In this document: positions 1 through 64,000 of the stretch, one piece after another
How the letters are laid out: every line of letters starts with the position of its first letter
Numbering within the stretch: position 1 is the first letter of the stretch
Source of the DNA: Saksenaea vasiformis B4078
Lineage: Eukaryota > Mucoromycota > Mucoromycetes > Mucorales > Saksenaeaceae
NCBI GenBank assembly: GCA_000697055.1
Contig: JNDT01001468.1
Span: 86,399 to 150,398, forward strand
Length of the DNA stretch: 64,000 bases
Direction of reading: 5' to 3'
The notes under the pieces: model-generated
What the model was told of the DNA's origin: nothing
Database searches by the model: none
What the model saw: the letters and a program-made list of their open reading frames with translations, nothing else
Position numbers and translations under genes: made by a program

Positions 1-952
1 GGTTACAGCGCCAACCTTCGCTCGTTAGCGGATATGTTTCATCCATGCACGAGCCACATGGAACAAATACAATGAGGGTGATGGTGTTTGGGAAGGCGAT
101 AGAGATGACAGTGCACTTGGCGATGCTGCAATCAATCATCATCTTTGTGAACGATTCAAGGTCGTAGTGATCCCTCAGGAACGTCAGCCGTTGCATCAAG
201 GGTTGTGTCTGTCGTATTCTGACATCCTTTCAGTCATTGTCAGAGATATTGCCATCCAATAATCGGTAACTGCTGTAAGCATGATTCTGATTTCTACAGA
301 CTGTCTTGCTTGCTTGTTTCTTTATCTTTCAATCCTACTGATCCTTCATCCATAAATGAGCTTTGGTTCTTTTTGCACCCTTTTTTCGTGAGAATTCTTC
401 AAAATATGGAGGACTGATGCATGTTTTGAGTGATTAGGCATTTCTAAGTAGTTGCGCAACAAAGCTATCTTATTTTGAATCCCAAATAAAGTGAGCGACA
501 TAAGAGTGCGTCAAAAGCAGCACCTGCAAAAAGTCTAGACACTCACAGTGAAAGAAAAGGAGAGATACACTGTTGTTTGTGTACGGTCTGAACATTATCT
601 CGTGCGTTTTCAAAGCAAGTAACTCTCAGGGAGCTCGCATCCAATGTTCTTGCTGCCATTTGAATGAACTATGTCCGTGCTGGTTACGTCCACCTCCTTG
701 ATCCCGCATATGCTGCCTCTTCATGCGGCAGTAAAACAAAGAACAAGTTGCGCACATGTGGCTAGTTTATCTGCGAAACAGGATCATGACCTGATATTGA
801 GCATTGTAGAAGAACAAAGAAACCTCATGATTAATTTTGAATGACGACAATGAAAACACATAATGACCACATTCCAAAACAGCTTTTTACTTCTCTACCC
901 TTCTATCCACTTTTTACTTCTCTACCCTTCTATCCACTTTTTACTTATTTTT
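1..952. other. No gene recognised; left flank of the Fanzor gene
   Basis: I see no family motif or splice-consistent reading frame here. The stretch includes the immediate upstream region of the Fanzor gene and a short tandem duplication at 883-936. It may hold the left end of a Fanzor-bearing element, but I could not identify terminal repeats by eye. Confidence 0.4.
883..936. repeat. 27-bp tandem duplication just upstream of the Fanzor start
   Basis: Two identical 27-base units lie head to tail at 883-909 and 910-936, each beginning CTTTTTACTTCTCTACC, and a partial third copy follows. The array sits 17 bases before the proposed ATG at 953, so it falls in the 5' leader or core promoter. It is pyrimidine-rich. 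Its function is unknown. Confidence 0.85.
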
Positions 953-3900
953 ATGGAACCTATTGTCGAGGAAGAAGAAGAAGGAGTAGGCCCACCTGCA
1001 CAACGGCAGAGACAACGCTACAGGCACTCGATTTTGCCACGCGATCGAGGACCCTTTCAACGGGTTACAAGAAAAATAAAAGTATCGAATTTTCTCAGGC
1101 CACAGTTTGGCCATCTAAGGGTGAGTCAAACTACGATACATCTATTGCTTAATCATATATTTCATGTAGCAACGTTTCCGGCATATCGCCGAGCAATATC
1201 ACGCCCTTCGACGTGACGCTTTGAACCTGGCAAACCTACACGTCCGTCGCTGGGCGGAAGAGGGACACGACCACGGAAATTTCACATTTCCACCCGTTGC
1301 TACTCGAGAATTTTGGAGAGCGGCATTCAGGTTTGTTCAGTACAGACCCTTGCACATCAATACCTCGGATGTGTACATGTAGGGAGTGATCAAGTATTCA
1401 TACCTTTATTTTGTAGCCATCATGGGAACGAAGCCTTTGGACTACAGCGATTGATCATTTCGAGCCGTTGCGGAAGGACGAACATGATGGATGTAAGTTA
1501 GCCTTGATCGATTGAAAATGCATGATATTAACCTCGACATAATAGATCTGTACGCTATCGAAAAGATCGAGGGATTTTTCATTGAGATGCCTGATCCATT
1601 TGCAATCAATGCAATTCAAAGTATGAGATATCCTTCCACTGATTATAGATCTAACATACCCATAGATATTCGCAGGCACCTCGTGAGTAATGTCTCGACA
1701 TATTTGCGATATGTATGGTTGGCCTATTTTCGCGCTTTGAAAGAGCGCCATCAAGGCTTCTTACCTGGGGAGGAACCGCGGCTCATGGTACGAAACAAGT
1801 TCGAATAAATCTCACTAACAATGGTTTTTCTAGCTCGATTTGCTGTTACTCGTATCACAAATCATGAACCTCTAGAGGACGATCACTGGCAGGATATGCC
1901 TTTCAGAGGCGAACTGCTGACTTTTTTTGAGTAAATACCTTGTGATTAATTTCATTGCTAATCATATCGACTGTCACAGGACCCAATACAATCTGTACCA
2001 GACTCACCTCGGTGATATCCTGATTGACGAGGTCGATCCAGAGGATGAAGGAACCCATCCACTTTTTCCAAGGATTGTGAAATACATGTACGAGTTGTAT
2101 CCATACAGTCCAATATAACGGTAGCCGTTGGTCACTTCTGCCTATTGCAACACATCAAGTCGGTTACTTTCCGATTACGGGCAGAGGTCTATGGAAAATC
2201 TTACGTGATGCGTTTGTTGCAAATGAGGCTGTTCCTCCACTGTTTGTGGTAAGTGAGCGTATCCTGGTTTTAAGTCGTCATGTACATTAAATGCTTTGAT
2301 TCTAGCGTGAGAATCCAAGACGGAGACAACTACCGTATTGCAGTCTCAAAGAATTTGACGCTCTTTGTCGAGATCCCGTCTGGCGAGAAAATTTTTGGGA
2401 ACAACTATTTAACATCGACAAGTGTCAGAAAAATCGCTGGCGGTGGAATAATGAACGTAGGTTGCTGTGCTTCCCAACTGCTGCTAATTAATTTATATTC
2501 TAGCTGTCGTTAATGCTGAACGTACTGCTCTTGAATTTGCTTACTATTTTGAAACGGATGGTGTAGGCGCATCTGTGGTGTTTGAGTGTCGCAAACACGG
2601 TAGGAGGAAAATAGCATGCTTCTTCCTGTCCTCATACTTTGTTAAGAACGTTTTCCCTCCTCCCAAAGGGATTTTCGGCTTCTACCCCGGAACATGTACC
2701 TTGGCTCATGGACGAAGGGTATTTATCACCTTAACAAGGAACCGACAGGTCTGGCACAGGAGCGTCTCGCGGGATCAAGGATCGTGGGACTTGACCCGGG
2801 CATACGATCGTTGTTCAGCGCGGTGGACACCAACGAGCCACTTGTAACTCGAGAGCTGCGCAATGCTCACACAGCCACAATTAGCAACAATGAATACCAG
2901 TAAGTCCACTTTGCCATATGATGATCGATGATCGTTAACAGGTCTTTAAGGCACCGATCCATGTTCTCGTGGGCCAAGCAAACGGAATTAAAATCACGTC
3001 GGGATGCATTCATGCAACAATATTACGACGAAATTGCGGAGAACCCGCCTACAGTCGCAACCACAATGGAGTTCAGAAGATACATACAAACAATCAGTAA
3101 TATACATCGACCGTAAGTATAACATTTATTTGAGAATATTCAACGATACTAAAGTGATCACTAGCATGCACGACTTTAATTGTTCTTATCGCCATCGTGA
3201 AAATCGGATGCTCTTGTACTCTGCACGACGTAGTACGTTAAATGTACTGGCTGACAGGGTAGCTACGGGTTCGCCCCGAGACGTAAGTGACAACATATCT
3301 AATTATAGATCTAATCTCTATGTTTCGGATAGGATTTGATCCAACCGCATTATAAATCTACAAGATCAAAAAGGAAGCGCCGGTGGCGGCGGTTAAGAGA
3401 AAATATCCACCAACAACAGCAGCAGCCGACCATCGTTGCATATGGTGATGCTGATTTGAAGCCTACAATGAGGGGTCTCGGTCCGTTACCAGTGAAAGTA
3501 TATGTTACATATTTTCCATTCGGATAATGCTAACTTAAAAACACATGCTAGCAATTCCGGAAAATACTCGCGCAGAAGTCCCTTGTTATACTAATGGACG
3601 AATATAACACTCCAAAAGTGTGCTCCAGCTGTGACAATGACACGCAGCAGTTTGTGACGCCCACTTCACGGTGTCAGCACAAGTAAGTCGCTGTTTTTTG
3701 CAAGCTCATACCAATTAACATTGTGTATCCTTAGAACGAAGTTGCTCCGTCGTCCGGGCGACGATCGTCGCAAAAGATACTGTTTGAATGAAGAAAATGT
3801 CATATTGCACAGGACTTCGCAATGCCCTGAATTGCGACCATTACGTGATGATCAGATCATACCGAAAGCAAGTTTCATTAACAGCATTCATGATAGCTTT

Positions 3901-4200
3901 GAACGATTTCCGCTGCCAGGTCTATCCGATTAAGTTGTGCAACCAACATCAGTTGGGAGGCGCTGGCATGGAACATGGAGAACAAAGGCCACTGGTATGT
4001 AATTCCTGTGTGAAGTACGAAGCTAAGGTTTTCTTTAGTTTTGGAATCGCGATATCAATGCGGGCAAAAACGTGGGGCGGATTCTGGTCGCATACATGGA
4101 AGGTGACATGCAATTGCAGACAAGGCCCGCTGCATTACGTCGTCCACAACAGCAGCAACAACAACAAGAACCTGCACCCCTTGGTGGTGCTAGGCCGTAA
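953..4200 (+). CDS. Fanzor-family protein (eukaryotic TnpB homologue), about 800 residues, 17-18 exons
   Basis: Fanzors are eukaryotic TnpB relatives; characterised members are RNA-guided DNA endonucleases often carried on transposons. Proposed exons: 953-1120, 1170-1370, 1417-1492, 1546-1620, 1666-1787, 1834-1851, 1893-1930, 1980-2248 (frame break near 2100), 2306-2456, 2504-2599, 2647-2899, 2942-3112, 3165-3282, 3333-3497, 3552-3682, 3735-3994 (frame break inside), 4039-4200. Motifs in family order: a TDG-containing strand (2504-2599); RuvC-I motif VGLDPGIRSLFSAVD (2647-2899); GDADLKPTMRGLGPLPVK (3333-3497); MDEYNTPKVCSSC before a zinc-ribbon region (3552-3682); RuvC-III motif FWNRDINAGKN (from 4039). 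The start is the first in-frame ATG of exon 1. The C-terminus is glutamine-rich. Most introns close in frame with good GT-AG signals. Two junctions (about 2081-2114 and 3735-3920) do not, so the copy may be slightly damaged or my model wrong there. The family call is confident; activity is not established. Confidence 0.85.
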
Positions 4201-6345
4201 GGAACGGCCAACTAGCCTCTCGTTAGGCACTGGGAGAGCTTCGTGAGTACCATTTCAAATGTTTGTGACGACATTCTTATTTTCTTTGTGACTTAGGGCC
4301 CTTCTAAGACAAACAAAAATCCTTTTTTTTTGTTTCCGACGTTTGGCTTAGCGTCAACGTGAAGATCGTTAAAAATACGTGTGAAACGTTTGGCAATAGC
4401 AAACGACTGGTAGCTTGGGGGATGTTATACATCTAGTGTTACTTGCGTCAATCTACAGAAAGGGAATTGCACAATCAGATTTCTTTATCATAAACAGATT
4501 TCACCGTAGAACCTCATGTTTGTGGTACCGCTTGTTGTTCAGTGCACATATGCCATTTTGGAAAGCCTTCACGTCGTCACCAACTTACCCTACAAAGATA
4601 AAAATATGCCTACCGCGTAAACCTTTTATTTTGTCTTAATCTTGAGACAAGTAGCTAATAAATCAAGAAAGTACCTCCTTACTCTTAAGAAATGAAAGCT
4701 GACACGTTCTTCTTTTGCATCCTCCCGCACTATGGAAAATTTTTGGCATCCTTCTGTTTCTATGTAACAGAGAATGAATGATCAGTTCACTATCTTTCTT
4801 ACAAAATTTAATGTTCCCTAGCATTGACCACAACATATTGTATTTTGTAACTTGTCATATCAGGCGAAGGACATTTCATGCAGCGCATTTGGAAAGAAGC
4901 TTAGATAAAACAGTAATGATGAAAACAATCATACGTTTCATGCGGTTTGTACAAACCCGTTTTTTACGTCTTGTGTCCAACAATCCCATTTCAAAAAATT
5001 ATGCCGAATAGTAATAGTGCGTTTTATTCATATACTTGTCCTACAAAATGAGTCGCACTATCTTCCTATGCACAACGTATCTATCTGTCCTACGTGTGTA
5101 TACTATCCATTTTCAATTGACTTGGTGACCACAAAGACATATTAAGACCTTCTTCCAACTTACCTGACAGAAATGTACCACAAACAAATCCAGGTACGCG
5201 AGTCATTCATTGGATGCAACAGCATAGCGTGACAGTTCCCAAAATTGAAAAGAATCAGACTCACGTAGGGACAATATTACTTGAAAATCCTCATTGATTT
5301 TTGTGGGAGAGGATGCCTTTTTCTGTGACGACCGGTGTCAGAACCAAGCCTGCGGGATTTATTGCGAACTACTTATGGTCAATAGAATTACTAATACGCC
5401 TCATTGTCGTTATTAGTAGGGCAATAGCCCACTATAATGACTCAACAATATGCAGTGAACGTTGCGCTAAAAAGGTGGTTGTAGTGAACGTGATATAGTA
5501 GCAACAAAACAGTGGCACCTGACCAGGGTACCAAAAAGTTCGCCTGATCATCCCTGGGCCACAAGTGACATCTTCTATCTTTTTTTTTCATAGAAGATAT
5601 GATCTGCTACATTGCACTTGCTTTCACATGTGTGGACGGTTCTCCACTTCGTTCATTCGTCTTCAGCTTATCGCAAGTGAGCTTTGCATGGCATATATGT
5701 ACTGGACCTGTCCAGAAATACACGTAATCAAAAAAGTTCAAAAAGAGAATGCAAGAAGTGTGGGACTGCAGACACGCGCTTCGATGATCTCTTAAAAGTA
5801 ATAATAATCTATCGGTAGTTCCAAGAAAATCCCTTCCACCTATATGAAGTCGATGGAAAGAAGACCGACAATGTTGTACAAGTTCGTGCAAATGAGAATT
5901 AAACGGTCTGCACGCCTTTTAACGAAGAGAAAATCGTAAAGCTATGCTGCTAGCAAATCACTGTCACTGAAGAAGGAGTAGCAAGTTTTCGGCTGGCAAA
6001 CGTTTTGTAACTGGCGCCACCTATCATCGGTGCGTGCTCCTCATTACTTCTTTTTTGTAGAGGTACGAGCCCTCCGCAACGCCTCCGCAAGGATTAAATA
6101 CTATGTAATTAATATATATTTACACTCAGGTTAGTGAGCCAGGACTCGCTGTTATGATAGGAGTAGCGAGCAAGAAGATCGGTTGTTGTTTCGATAATCG
6201 ACACATTGGCCTTAACAGCGCGTCTGCTTTCGACGTCGCTGATTGGCTAGATTTTCACGGTGATTAACAACAGCAGTCCCAGCGTTACGGGTGCGCTTTG
6301 TTGCCCATTCGTTACGAGAAAACAAACAACTCCCCACTCTTTATA
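4201..6345. other. No gene recognised; 3' flank of the Fanzor gene and promoter of the complex I gene
   Basis: No reading frame here shows a motif or plausible splicing. The first 250 bases follow the Fanzor stop and contain a T-run near 4323 and short self-complementary segments such as ACGTT/AACGT around 4338-4362. In TnpB and Fanzor systems the guide RNA is usually encoded at this end, so the flank is a candidate only. Confidence 0.4.
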
Positions 6346-56580: not shown

Positions 56581-59173
56581 ACTTGCCCCTGAGTTGCCTC
56601 TGACTGCACTGTGAACTATGACGCAAGACTTGCTGACCATTGTCCAAACAGTACCGTCTCCTGTGTCTGTCGGCGCGAAGACGGGGCATTTTTAAACTGT
56701 ATGAAATACCGTCAGTGGAACGTAAAGCGACAACCATGATGCTAGATATCAACGTTCGCAACTTATCGTAGGAACTTGGAGGTGCTGGGTTCCTTAATCA
56801 CAGTTGCTGCAGATCTTACTCGTATTATACTCATCAACGAGTACAACCAACGCTTCCTGACATAACGCCCTGCGGAATTTCTTTGATTTTTCATATATGA
56901 GAAGCTCCTGATTACCATGATAGAAAGATACAGAACTTCACAGGGCATGGCGTTTCATTCCCGGCTTCAGATCCACGTCATCACGAGGGATAATCTCAGG
57001 ACGTCCATCTCTTTCCATAACACCCCTCTTTCGTTTCCGGCTCGAAGCATTTGTTTGAGAACGGGTTCATCATATTTCTATTGACTAATTTAGCATGTGC
57101 AATACCTCCACAGGCTTACATCAGGGACAATGTTATGAACAAATTTGTTGGTTAGCCTGGATAGAGTCGGCGCTCTTGCACTACTTATTGTGAGCAGTCG
57201 CTCACGGTGCTCATAGGACCCATTAAACCGTTGCAGTCTTGTAAAATCTGTTAGCTGTAATATACAGCACTTGAAGTCAAGATCTACCTGGTATGAACGG
57301 CATTGAGTGTTCCTATGTATCTTTGGAATTTGGTCATACAGCAGACTTTCGCAGGGTAGTCGTTTCGAAATGCATAAAATGGCTCAATTACTGATGCTCT
57401 ACGAGCCACGAGTTCCTTTTTGACATCTCCGTTTGAATAGCGACAGTTTCCTGTGATATTTTAGAAATTCACGACCAAGCACAACAATTTACCCACTGAT
57501 ACTGCCAATTAATAATGGAAGCACAATGCTGCTAAAGGAGTTCGGCATCTCTCAGAGGAGCATTCGTATTAGCCGCCGTATACATTGAACGTATATCTGA
57601 AGTCTATGTCAGCAAATGTACGTACTTCTATCGATTATGATATGGTAGCTGGATCCAGGCCAATTATCTTTGTTCCGTTGGACCTCTCTTCAAACAGACC
57701 TCTGGAATCTTCTTTAGGTGGTATACTCCCCTTGTACAGTTACTGAGAGCTAGGCCTCGTCACAACATCTAAAAGTCGCGTTGCGACGAAGGGGTAGCGT
57801 CTGGATTGGACATATCAGTACATCTCCAAACAACTGATACATCTTACTTACATAAACGACGCCTATCAAACAGAACATCCGACGTTACGCCATTTGTTTG
57901 AAAGAAGTGGGACAAGTAGTACAGCGATCTTGTCGCATTTCGGGCAGCTGCCAGATATTTGAACATCTCTCGAACGTTACAGCCCCGTGTTACCATCTGC
58001 TTACCATCTCCATCCATTTTGTTGACATCTACCGATGTCAAATACTGCTTTCCAAGGTCTCTCTCGCGAGGCTGATTCACGCATTTGGAGCTCGAACTCA
58101 CGCAGCGATATCATTTCCATAGCCGATTCACGGAGACTCAAAGACTGGTTGATAATTGCATACTATCAGACTTCATTAAAGACCTCTAAGCTCTCTATCT
58201 AACTATTCTGTAGCTTACGTTACATAAGTGTCTCTAAGAGGCAGACACTGAGTGTGCGTAGTGATTCTTCAAATTATTATCCTCGCCGTCACTTGATTCA
58301 GATGGACGTTGAAGCTTCGTTTCTTTCTTATAAGAAAGTTCAGATATGACTGTAATAATTATCCTTCCTCCTCATATCCTTTGTCGAACCACTGCGGAAC
58401 ATTAAGGAAATAAAGCTGATGCGATAATAAGTTGCTTGACAAAATGATATTCCATCATCTATCATTTTGTGGACAATAATATTGTCAACATGTCGTTGTA
58501 TGCGAAGGACGTGGTTGGATCAGATATAATTCGCGGTAGTGAGCCGAAACATACGTCATACAAACGAATTGAACGAAGAGGTCTTGGTACATGAATGACA
58601 AATGTTCGAGAGCCTCATCTATAACAGAAGACACCTTCCTCGCTTTATCACATACAGATTATCAGCTTAAGTTATCGACTTTTCTCCTCACCGAAAGTAT
58701 AATTATAACGCGCGCCAACTGTAATTTCTACCAGTATTTGTTATCTTTGGAGATGACTTATATGAAATGTAGCGTCGTCTTTGTGTTTGCTTACGATGCA
58801 GGGACACGAGTAACAATAAGGCTACATCAAGGTAATATATGTCTCTAACATAGTTTTCTTAGTAATGTTATGGGTTTGCAATGCTCTGGCTGACCATGCT
58901 CGAGGATGTCTTGTTTCTGAACTGCGTGAGATGTCTACTATAAAACTCGAAAAAGATGGCGAGTCAGTCTTTGCTTTATTTTTGACGATATTAAACGTCT
59001 CCTTGAACTTGAGGGACAGACTTACGCAAACATTGTCTATTCTGGAGAAATTTTGTTCTATTATCATGCTGGCTTCACTCTCCGTTTCCCTGGAAAGGAA
59101 GAACATAAACATAAAAGAGAAGACCAGCATCTTTGGTTCATATTTACGGCTCTTTCTTCTTAAAAAAAGAGAA

Positions 59174-61356: not shown

Positions 61357-64000
61357 ATGCCTCCAAAAAAGTTGCAAAAAGGGTAAGCTTGTAATATCAA
61401 ACGTATAACACTTGATAATCGTTAATGTACTTAATAGCAAAGGGAAGGCTGTTGCTACTAAGAAATCTCCAACTCCAGTAGACTCGTTAAGTCGGAACAG
61501 TATCATTTCACAGTCTTAATACGCTCGCTTTTTTGTCTAGTGGGTCTGATGATGATTCACAACTTCAATTAGCCGTCCAGCTTAGCCGTCAGAGCCGCAT
61601 GCTATCATCCACCGTTGCTGGTCCTTCCTCTGCTGCTGGCCCTTCCTCTGCTGCTGGCCCTTCCTCTGCTGCTGGCCCTTCCTCTGCTGCTGGCCCTTCC
61701 TCTGCTGCTGCTCCTTCATCATCTGCTAGCGATCATGATTACTCAGGGATGTCTAACTTGCAAATAATCTCACACAAGAAACGCAAGAAGAAGGAAATAA
61801 CTTGACGAACTTGAACGTAAAAGACAGGAACGCGAACAGCAGATACAGCAAGGTAAAGCGCAAACTATCATAATTTATTAGACCAATTTATTTATTTCGT
61901 ATTAGCAATCTGCAAACGCTGTGGAAGGGCAGGCCATCGCGATGCACGAAGTAGAAGTTGCCGCACTTAATAACAGATTCGATCCTAATGCGCAGGAAGG
62001 TAACTACGCCATACATGACTTCGAAGATAAGTTATCTATTTCGGATCCTATAGACAATACTGTTGCTGGTAGCTCTCTTTCCACCCGTAAACGAAAGTTA
62101 TAACAAGTCGAAAAGGATATTTCGAAACAAGCGAGACAAGAGGGAAGCGTCGGAAAACAGCAGCAATCCAGAACGTAGCGTCAAATCAATGCAGCAGCTG
62201 CCTGGAGAAGGGAATTTATCAACAGCAAGTACCACATGGTTCACGAAGAAGTCGACACTGTCCCGATCACACCGAAACATTAAATGAACGACTCAAACGT
62301 TACCGGGAGAAAAGCATCGGCGCTTTGTTCGGAAGATCGGATTAGATACGATATTGCGTTTGACAGGACATCAAAAGGACCAATTTATGCAGCATATCAG
62401 TAATCTGGTCGATTTCCAGCGCGAGGTGGCGATCAAATCACAGTGGTTTGCAATATATTACGTTCTACAGATACTTGACAACGACCAAGAGGTGCCACCA
62501 ATACTGTTCTCTCAGTACTTTTTCTATGCATGTATGCAGCTTGTCTTGGGAAGGAATATCACCAGCAGCAACCGGAAGTTACCCAGAGAAGACATGACCG
62601 AATCTTTCACTGCATTTGTTCAACAATTTCCTCATTTTCTTGTAACGAGACAGTACCAATATTCCCATGCGTTAACGCCGTTAGCCGTACAGTCAGCTAC
62701 TATTTTCACAAACTCCGTTACCGAAACGTTCGAATCTCCCGCAATCAAATACTTTCATTTTAGGCTGAGAGACCTTGTAGAGGTATGTAGATATATTGTC
62801 ATTACCGTTATGATTGACTCATACTCGTATGTAGGATATAACAAAGAAAGACGCCACTGCACTGGCTGGATATATCTACGACTACTGTGGAGGTGTTACG
62901 ATCCCTGAGTGGCCGGAGGCTGTTCAGCATTCTGAAGTCCTGCAGATTGCAGTAGAAGGAATAATTGTCAGTTTTGACTCTGTGCCCCGACCAATCAATC
63001 TGGAAAATATATCTGCGCAGCCAGAAATATACCTTCGTAGTCTATATGACATGCTACAAGAATTACAAGCGTATAACACGCAGCAAACGGAGCTTGCAGA
63101 AGAGATCCAGACGGTTGCAACTCGAGGCTGGGCATTTGCTTTGATTCGGTCCATTGAAGAATTCGATGTACTTGGTCGTCGATACCGATCACGATTAGTG
63201 ACAAAAATTGTGGAAGCTGTCAATTCATCTCAACCGACTCATCTCAACGCTGAGCGTTTATCATTCGAATCTCTTGAATACATACAGCATACTATTGATA
63301 CCACTCGAGCTCAGATCAGCAATTCAATCCAATACGATCGTCAGATTGAGCAGTCCGGTTCGAGCAACATCGCTCGTGAGAACTGTTTTCGCCCTGAATT
63401 ATTTACATTTGTCCAACAACAGAAGGTTTTCTCTTTGATGCCACAGTACGGTTTCAAGCGTCAATATGCCAGTATCGATATCGTAACCCTTCGACAATTG
63501 CTTCGTCAAAGTGGTGTTCAGTTACTACATAGTGGGGCTCGCCAACAGACACAAGAGCAACATAAGCAAGATACACGACAATTCGCAGCAGTCTTTGACC
63601 TCAACAAAATTCGATGCAGAAGGTAGTTAATATCTGGACCAAGATCATTTACTAATAACCTCTTTAGTCTCTTAGAGGACCTTGATTTGGATGAACCTCG
63701 AGAACTGTTCACAAACCTCGTAAGAACAGACGGCTATGCAATCGACTTTATATTTGCTCGCAGAACAACAGAGGAACAAGACTTACCAGATCTGGACGCC
63801 ACAGACTTTGATGAATGGGAGCTTAATAACGTATTCGACTTATGGGGAGCTGACCAGGGGATGACGGAGATTTATGTAGCTAGTAATGGTCATCGAACAG
63901 AACCTCATGAAATTCGAAAGATGTCCACAGCAGAGTTTTATGTCATGGCTGGGTACAAGAAGACGAATGCGAATATCCTGCGAATTAAGCGCGAAAACGA
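61357..64000 (+). CDS. Second Fanzor-like protein, N-terminus uncertain, truncated by the window edge
   Basis: The secure part has three exons: from about 62320 to 62782, 62835-63622 and 63668 onward, all joining in frame. The first contains RFVRKIGLDTILRLTGHQKD; the second contains KVFSLMPQYGFKRQYASIDI, corresponding to the SLLP segment of the first Fanzor. The third contains LVRTDGYAIDFIFARR and the RuvC-I-like GADQGMTEIYVASNGH, then the family-typical RKMSTAEFYVMAGYKKTN. The zinc ribbon and RuvC-III would lie beyond 64000. Upstream, probable N-terminal exons include 61357-61382, a segment with a UIM-like DDSQLQLAVQLSRQS and AGPSSA repeats, and a zinc-knuckle segment CKRCGRAGHRDARSRSC (from 61906). 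These do not join cleanly, so the start and exons before about 62320 are tentative and may be damaged. Confidence 0.7.
61617..61706 (+). repeat. Five tandem 18-bp units encoding AGPSSA
   Basis: The unit GCTGGCCCTTCCTCTGCT is repeated five times (61617, 61635, 61653, 61671, 61689), the first copy with one base difference. Read in the frame of the UIM-like segment it encodes a flexible Ala-Gly-Pro-Ser linker in the N-terminal region of the second Fanzor-like gene. Such arrays vary in copy number. Confidence 0.9.

Follow-up and report, generated by a model that had tools for sequence, protein, structure and literature searches.

A Fanzor1 gene in Mutator-type elements of Saksenaea vasiformis and a predicted guide RNA interrupted by a putative intron

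A Fanzor gene carried inside an inverted-repeat transposon raises the question of how one transposon end can meet two demands, as the repeat is needed in the DNA by the transposase, and yet the scaffold has to lie beside the guide in the RNA. The published solution, as described in the available part of the report, is that the repeat is built into the scaffold (PMC10711439). Here, we analyse a stretch of 64,000 nt from Saksenaea vasiformis B4078 (contig JNDT01001468.1, positions 86,399 to 150,398 of the forward strand; hereafter the window) in which a Fanzor1 gene ends close to such a repeat. Judged from the sequence, the best explanation is probably that a Mutator-type element carries the gene, and that its guide RNA is interrupted by a spliceosomal intron whose removal would join the scaffold.

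The preliminary description of this locus had read it as an intron-rich Fanzor gene of 17–18 small exons, recognized by RuvC-I, zinc-ribbon entry and RuvC-III motifs. All three motifs are present in the window (GLDPGIRSLFSAVD at 2787–2828, MDEYNTPKVCSSC in exon 14 and WNRDINAGKN in exon 17), and the assignment to the Fanzor family as an intron-rich fungal gene is borne out by a second family of copies in the same genome, by profile matches and by relatives in other Mucorales. When translated pieces of 901–4310 were compared with this second family (family B; copies on the contigs C525 and C537), the exon set and order were identical, an agreement that far exceeds chance and settles the exon number at 17; the feature runs beyond 4200 to 4304, and the predicted guide RNA is located in this 3′ part (Table 1). 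The joined proteins of the window copy, which belongs to family A, and of family B are 56% identical, the family B row being a mix of the two sister copies. Family B has an extra intron within the RuvC-I motif, and the 16 coding introns are 42–57 nt long as measured in the sister copy C272. We conclude that the Fanzor1 gene is real and is carried by a multicopy transposable element.

The window copy is itself decayed. The splice donor of exon 2 is gone, and frameshifts relative to sister copies occur in exons 5 and 7; therefore, the locus itself could not encode a nuclease, as had been proposed for it. None of the eight long family A copies, the window copy included, gave an intact reading through the 17-exon model, with boundaries transferred by alignment and one copy cut off by its contig, and assembly mosaics may explain part of this. 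Immediately 5′ of the Fanzor start codon, at 883–946, lies a perfect 27-bp tandem repeat of 2.4 copies, at which sister-copy alignments are interrupted.

Table 1. Positions of the gene, the element parts and the predicted guide RNA, counted from the first letter of the window.
Feature	Positions	Strand	Remarks
Putative MULE transposase gene remnant, antisense to Fanzor	1–229, extends left of window	-	DNA relatives on or near PF10551 loci
Fanzor1 gene	953–4200	+	17 exons, decayed copy; stop codon TAA 4198–4200
Fanzor1 exons 1–6	953–1120, 1170–~1370, 1417–1492, 1546–1620, 1666–1787, 1834–1930	+	
Fanzor1 exons 7–12	1980–2248, 2306–2456, 2504–2599, 2647–2899, 2942–3112, 3165–3282	+	
Fanzor1 exons 13–17	3333–3497, 3552–3682, 3735–3844, 3897–3994, 4039–4200	+	
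Exon 10	2647–2899	+	RuvC-I motif GLDPGIRSLF (Asp)
Exon 14	3552–3682	+	DEYNTPKVCSSC, zinc ribbon entry
Exon 17	4039–4200	+	RuvC-III WNRDINAG; last codons double as predicted guide RNA start
Predicted guide RNA stem P1	4193–4209	+	GGCCGT-AAGGA-ACGGCC; holds Fanzor stop codon
Predicted guide RNA stem P2	4215–4228	+	GCCT-CTCGTT-AGGC
Predicted guide RNA stem P3, 5′ arm and part of loop	4230–4242	+	CTGGGAGAGC-TTC
Proposed spliceosomal intron	4243–4296	+	GTGAGT...GTGACTTAG, 54 nt; carries right terminal-inverted-repeat core
P3 3′ arm and element right end	4297–4304	+	G-GCCCTTC
Flanking DNA, would-be guide	4305–4325	+	length inferred

In profile searches, the closest database proteins were from Fennellomyces sp. 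T-0311 (E 1.9e-114) and Rhizopus microsporus (E 4.4e-87), both Mucorales, and zero matches were returned by the database for the joined window exons as a single-protein query and by PDB sequence searches. An HMM search of the spliced product, proposed earlier as a check, reaches PF07282 above the cut-off with family B (E 4.5e-6), but the window copy stays under it (E 0.026, 15.1 bits, cut-off 26.3). The NCBIfam profile guided_TnpB matched one of two members at E 0.0025, and the window copy itself had 0 family matches. These profiles tie the gene weakly to TnpB/Cas12f-type proteins. The joined window exons contain D467, T673 (205 between), CSSC and RD at 770–771, and exon 14 reads TPK in the window copy and TSK in family B, two other A copies and P0001. 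The glutamate of exon 14 may correspond to the alternative RuvC-II residue that Fanzors have. The Fanzor1 motif given in the available part of the 2013 report is D-X(125,275)-[TS]-[TS]-X-X-[C4 zinc finger]-X(5,50)-RD (PMC3627910), of which the second [TS] is T-P in the window copy and T-S in family B and the two other A copies. The second half of the zinc ribbon is C-x-x-H (CNQH / CHHH), with no clear C4. A structure prediction of the relative P0002 from a two-row alignment had a mean pLDDT of 29.5.

The gene reported in the preliminary description is thus real, but it had been taken by itself, when it is one copy of a Mutator-type element with a predicted guide RNA at its 3′-end. The element is about 5.2 kb long and ends at 4304, its limits being those of homology among copies; the left limit lies about 0.9 kb left of the window, at about 85,470 of the contig (C233), on which the window begins at 86,399. 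It has about 20 copies in the genome, alongside several related families. A DNA comparison with 953–4200 gave at least 45 matches (60 candidates, 40 scored), of which seven, besides that of the window, are long copies at 92–96% identity. As many contigs begin or end inside the element (C298, C555, C244, C492, C413 and others), the copy number is a lower bound. The left end reads CGATTTACTTATGTCACAAAC... and the right end ...GTGACTTAGGGCCCTTC, with the inverted core ACTTA(W)GTCAC common to both and clearer in family B (ACTTAAGTCAC). DNA relatives of the left part lie on or beside loci that score above the PF10551 cut-off, on the expected strand (C276, C337, C421, C540 and C624), and the locus L042, which is 75% identical to the transposase remnant, matches PF10551 at E 2.5e-4, its 21.9 bits falling short of the cut-off of 27.6; Pfam gave no MULE (PF10551) match for the remnant itself. 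L042 (C287) and L044 (C450) are related elements, and C450, in which a transposase-like part is combined with a Fanzor start exon at 73–88% DNA identity, may represent an older branch of the composite element.

Flanks were matched between half-copies on different contigs (17 lefts parsed of 19 tried, and 34 rights), which gave 12 left–right matches of at least nine bases, with shared lengths of 9–14; the control averaged 0.98 matches. Of these 12, the match C552/C445 lies away from the left end and looks like chance. Taken together, the flanking sequences have the ~9-bp target duplications of a Mutator-like element. By eye, the two flanks of the window copy, of C272 and of C606 do not match within each copy; as one C272 flank and one C606 flank match other contigs, these copies may be assembly mosaics. 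Helitron-type ends were also considered, and were dropped by reasoning because target duplications and inverted repeats are present.

Between the gene end and the element end we find a conserved structured RNA, predicted to be the omega RNA of the Fanzor. Its core occurs at 43 sites in the genome in a search allowing at most three mismatches, a pattern by which copies with more mismatches could not be detected; 31 of these sites have no mismatch, and a reversed control pattern gave 0. Family A accounts for 21 of the copies (with C602), family B for 18 and family C for 4. Families E (4 copies seen), E′ (2) and G (3) are more distant, and have P1 and the second stem in common with these. The fourth pair of P1 is C-G in A and A-U in B and C. 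The viral contigs that were scanned had 0 matches to the core. Stretches on C441, C626 and C462, with no RuvC-III exon by the word searched, were left out, and three with such an exon and no recognisable RNA core in the fetched stretch (C182, C580 and C565) were counted neither for nor against.

The third stem, P3, is in A–C made from arms on both sides of an interruption. In a MAFFT alignment of 19 distinct spliced sequences, 87.4% of the P3 cells are paired, and 6 of 10 pairs have changes on both sides. The whole spliced structure is 93.2% paired, compared to 83.0% in shuffled alignments, and has a covariation score of 0.325, compared to 0.165, neither of which was reached in any of 500 shuffles; slid versions of the structure are 30–42% paired. 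As the sequences are related, the paired cells are not independent events. The number of pairs changed on both sides in the whole structure (7) was matched by 121 of 500 shuffles and the number of pair types by 44 of 500, and neither is unusual. The 19 sequences were taken from the copies used to compare arms within and between families, which were 34 of the 43 RNA copies (18 of 20 A, 13 of 18 B and 3 of 4 C, C602 being handled separately). Copies were dropped for a lost acceptor (C575), a missing right end (C361), a contig end (C537) or another length (C382), or had no match to the expression used (C275, C344, C420 and C637). Own-family arms pair at 0.78 in A, 0.92 in B and 0.93 in C, while cross-family arms reach 0.51–0.64 for A/B and 0.53–0.68 for A/C; those of B and C are interchangeable (0.79–0.97). 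Most family A copies (17 of 18) have an A x C mismatch in P3, and in 23 of 34 copies the outermost pair does not form. In C602, which is 86–88% identical to A and whose right end was not found, the 5′ arm pairs at 9–10 of 10 positions with the 3′ arm of A (flanking bases included) and at 5–6 of 10 with that of B.

The interruption occurs in six families (A, B, C, E, E′ and G). It has GT...AG ends and is 51–62 nt long in representative copies, close to the coding introns of the gene, and it lies inside P3 in A, B and C, where it contains the inverted-repeat core, and after P2 in E, E′ and G. The donor starts GTAAGT in A, C and G, GTAAGA in B, GTAAAG in E, GTGAGG in E′ and GTGAGT in the window copy, and the family E stretch has TCTAAC ahead of TTTCAG. 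In family A, 19 of 20 copies have kept the donor GT and 18 of 19 the acceptor AG, and both survive in two copies with internal deletions; a splice site has been lost from individual copies (C412 and C575 in A, C666 in B and C382 in C). As the acceptor AG in A–C is within the inverted-repeat core, it could be conserved for that reason. Scored with a splice-site profile trained on the 16 coding introns, the proposed intron came out on top in 9 of 12 test regions, at scores that 8–18% of genomic windows reach, and was outscored by another splice pair in one case each from C, E and G; splice-site strength taken alone is moderate. In its ends, its host-like length and its pattern of divergence, the stretch is by its letters like a spliceosomal intron.

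In-silico removal of the stretch leaves three stems directly abutting the flanking DNA. A, B and C then fold as P1–P2–P3, with z-scores of −2.4 and −4.2 (two A copies), −4.6 (B) and −5.0 (C), and the unspliced forms, one each, gave −1.8, −2.2 and −1.8. Spliced E and G are hardly more stable than shuffles (z −0.7 and −1.3), and the modelled spliced folds of E, E′ and G are not convincing. The annotated junction gives the lowest energy (tied) among 50 same-length removals in B and C, and was first of 11–13 GT–AG pairs in 6 of 6 copies tested; in five copies of A, the annotated removal ranked 4th–9th of 45 by energy and first or second among 4–5 GT–AG pairs, and by energy it was 5th of 40 in E, 22nd of 44 in E′ and 6th of 44 in G.

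An alternative is that the guide RNA functions unspliced, the inverted repeat staying in the scaffold and P3 closing over it as a long branched stem. This would agree with the terminal inverted repeats and target-site duplications predicted inside Fanzor1 scaffolds in the available part of an earlier study (PMC10711439); moreover, the P3 arms are able to pair unspliced too, and the unspliced folds of A, B and C retain P1, P2 and the outer P3 pairs. We nevertheless regard it as rather unlikely, as the stretch has no structure of its own (z 0.4, −0.5, −0.9, 0.1 and 1.0 in A, B, C, E and G), and its interior is near the shuffled level (0.50 versus 0.46 in A–B, 0.48 versus 0.48 in E–G) while its borders remain GT...AG. 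In the same comparisons the RNA 5′ of the interruption keeps 0.72–0.74, and between E and G both sides are conserved with nothing above the shuffled level in between; the B–C interiors are still 0.62 alike, versus 0.47 when shuffled. Between E and E′ (C656 and C643), 0 of 64 RNA sites and 6 of 51 intron sites differ (Fisher 0.006), two other E/E′ copy pairs being weaker (0.04 and 0.08). Also against an unspliced RNA, the halves of the 3′ arm in B and C pair with adjacent 5′-arm bases exactly at the GT/AG junction.

The stretch could instead be an ordinary 3′-UTR intron of the Fanzor mRNA, with guides made from separate or unspliced transcripts, or lost as the family decays. The frameshifts, stops or truncation of the eight long A copies under the gene model would fit such decay, and a position 42 nt past the stop codon is unremarkable for an mRNA, but P3 pairing and covariation across the junction would be purposeless there, and the absence of any mismatch in most of the RNA-core copies (31 of 43) also makes this quite improbable. 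Moderate as the individual splice-site scores are, a chance likeness to splice signals in a transposon end without RNA function can be set aside almost entirely, given the recurrence in six families, the compensating changes in the conserved stems, and the failure of slid or mismatched controls.

The flanking DNA bears on the guide. The right flank starts with (C)CAA in 16 of 19 A copies and with TAA in the window copy. As CAA also stands at the matching place on the left side of 8 of 9 paired A copies (the ninth, C244, has AA only), we conclude that it comes from the target, and as (C)CAA can extend P3 in family A, target sequence would join the scaffold. In family B the first base of the flank is G in 12 of 13 rows, a G common to the left flank in C537/C104 and not in C232/C339, and in E and E′, whose P3 closes inside the element, six flanks have no common start. 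The sequence (G/C)CCAA is at most a candidate TAM.

For the spliced guide RNA that we favor, we propose that transcription of the Fanzor gene would continue past its 3′-end and the end of the transposon and reach the flanking DNA. Its 3′ part would be the guide RNA, composed of P1 (with the stop codon), P2, P3 and then flank as the guide, and a small spliceosomal intron would interrupt it, carrying in A–C the inverted-repeat core on which the transposase depends at the DNA level. Once this DNA-only signal is spliced out, the P3 arms would lie together beside the guide, in family A with P3 extended by the flanking (C)CAA, and the guide would direct an active nuclease to cut the empty site. The fuller proposal has, in our estimate, about an even chance of being right: that the transposon end lies in the intron of the guide RNA and would serve the transposase as DNA and the nuclease as spliced RNA, that the family A target (C)CAA completes the last stem and so would tie target choice to the guide, and that the intron sits at about the same place in six families.

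Parts of this arrangement are already known. Fanzor1 genes in MuDR-type elements of Mucorales were published in 2013 as ROr-4, PBl-3 and MCi-4, which, in the available part of the report, have in common with our element the order of the host fungi, the Mutator-type ends, the ~9-bp target duplications and the lack of an intact transposase (PMC3627910). Unlike these, the element described here has a putative transposase remnant and an apparently interrupted predicted guide RNA; the same available part contains no guide RNA, and the word ‘intron’ is absent from its main text. Like SpuFz1, GtFz1 and PpFz1, as the available parts describe them, it would have a 3′-end RNA that ends at the element end and takes its guide from the flank, and as in GtFz1 the RNA overlaps the coding end (PMC10432273, PMC11423790). 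The native guides of three characterised Fanzors are given there as 14, 21 and 11 nt (PMC10432273). ‘Intron’ is absent from both main texts, and ‘splic’ occurs in one reference (PMC10432273) and in a cyclophilin remark and a reference (PMC11423790), with no guide splicing. The Fanzor1 reRNA of an insect virus (SfAV) is likewise, in the available part of the report, a three-stem RNA with target-site bases in the scaffold, but in that case the scaffold is predicted to retain the inverted repeat, whereas in A–C the repeat would leave as an intron (PMC10711439). In the literature searched, which lay mostly outside subscription journals and included PMC10432273, PMC11423790 and PMC10711439, we came across no Fanzor guide RNA described as spliced. 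What is new here is thus the 3′-end, with a predicted guide RNA interrupted by an intron-like stretch.

IStrons carry a guide RNA of the TnpB type. Introns have reportedly been set against guide RNAs in a 2024 Science paper, in which IStron splicing is said to compete with guide RNA production. Like IStrons, the element described here is a mobile element with an intron at its ends. An IStron combines an insertion sequence with a group I intron (PMC4227781, available part), and this self-splicing intron takes the element out of the host RNA; unlike this, the small spliceosome-type intron proposed here would help make the guide RNA. If true, splicing the repeat out would be a different solution from building it into the scaffold, would couple an RNA-guided nuclease to the spliceosome of the host, and would be a new way for an RNA-guided enzyme to live inside a foreign transposon. 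For intron-rich Fanzors, guide RNAs may then not be readable from the genome as a single contiguous piece.

Further Fanzor-like sequences are found both in the genome and in the window. Exon 10 has 113 matches in the genome, indicating many Fanzor loci, a large share of them just ~50–60% identical in the RuvC-I exon. At 61616–61710 there is an array of 5.3 tandem copies of an 18-bp repeat, with 98% match. A second, decayed and more distant Fanzor-like remnant lies on the minus strand at 57700–57795, with further pieces at about 57090–58162; it matches the RuvC-I exon at E 2.3e-4 with two stops, and the adjoining minus-strand frames resemble Fanzor exons by eye.
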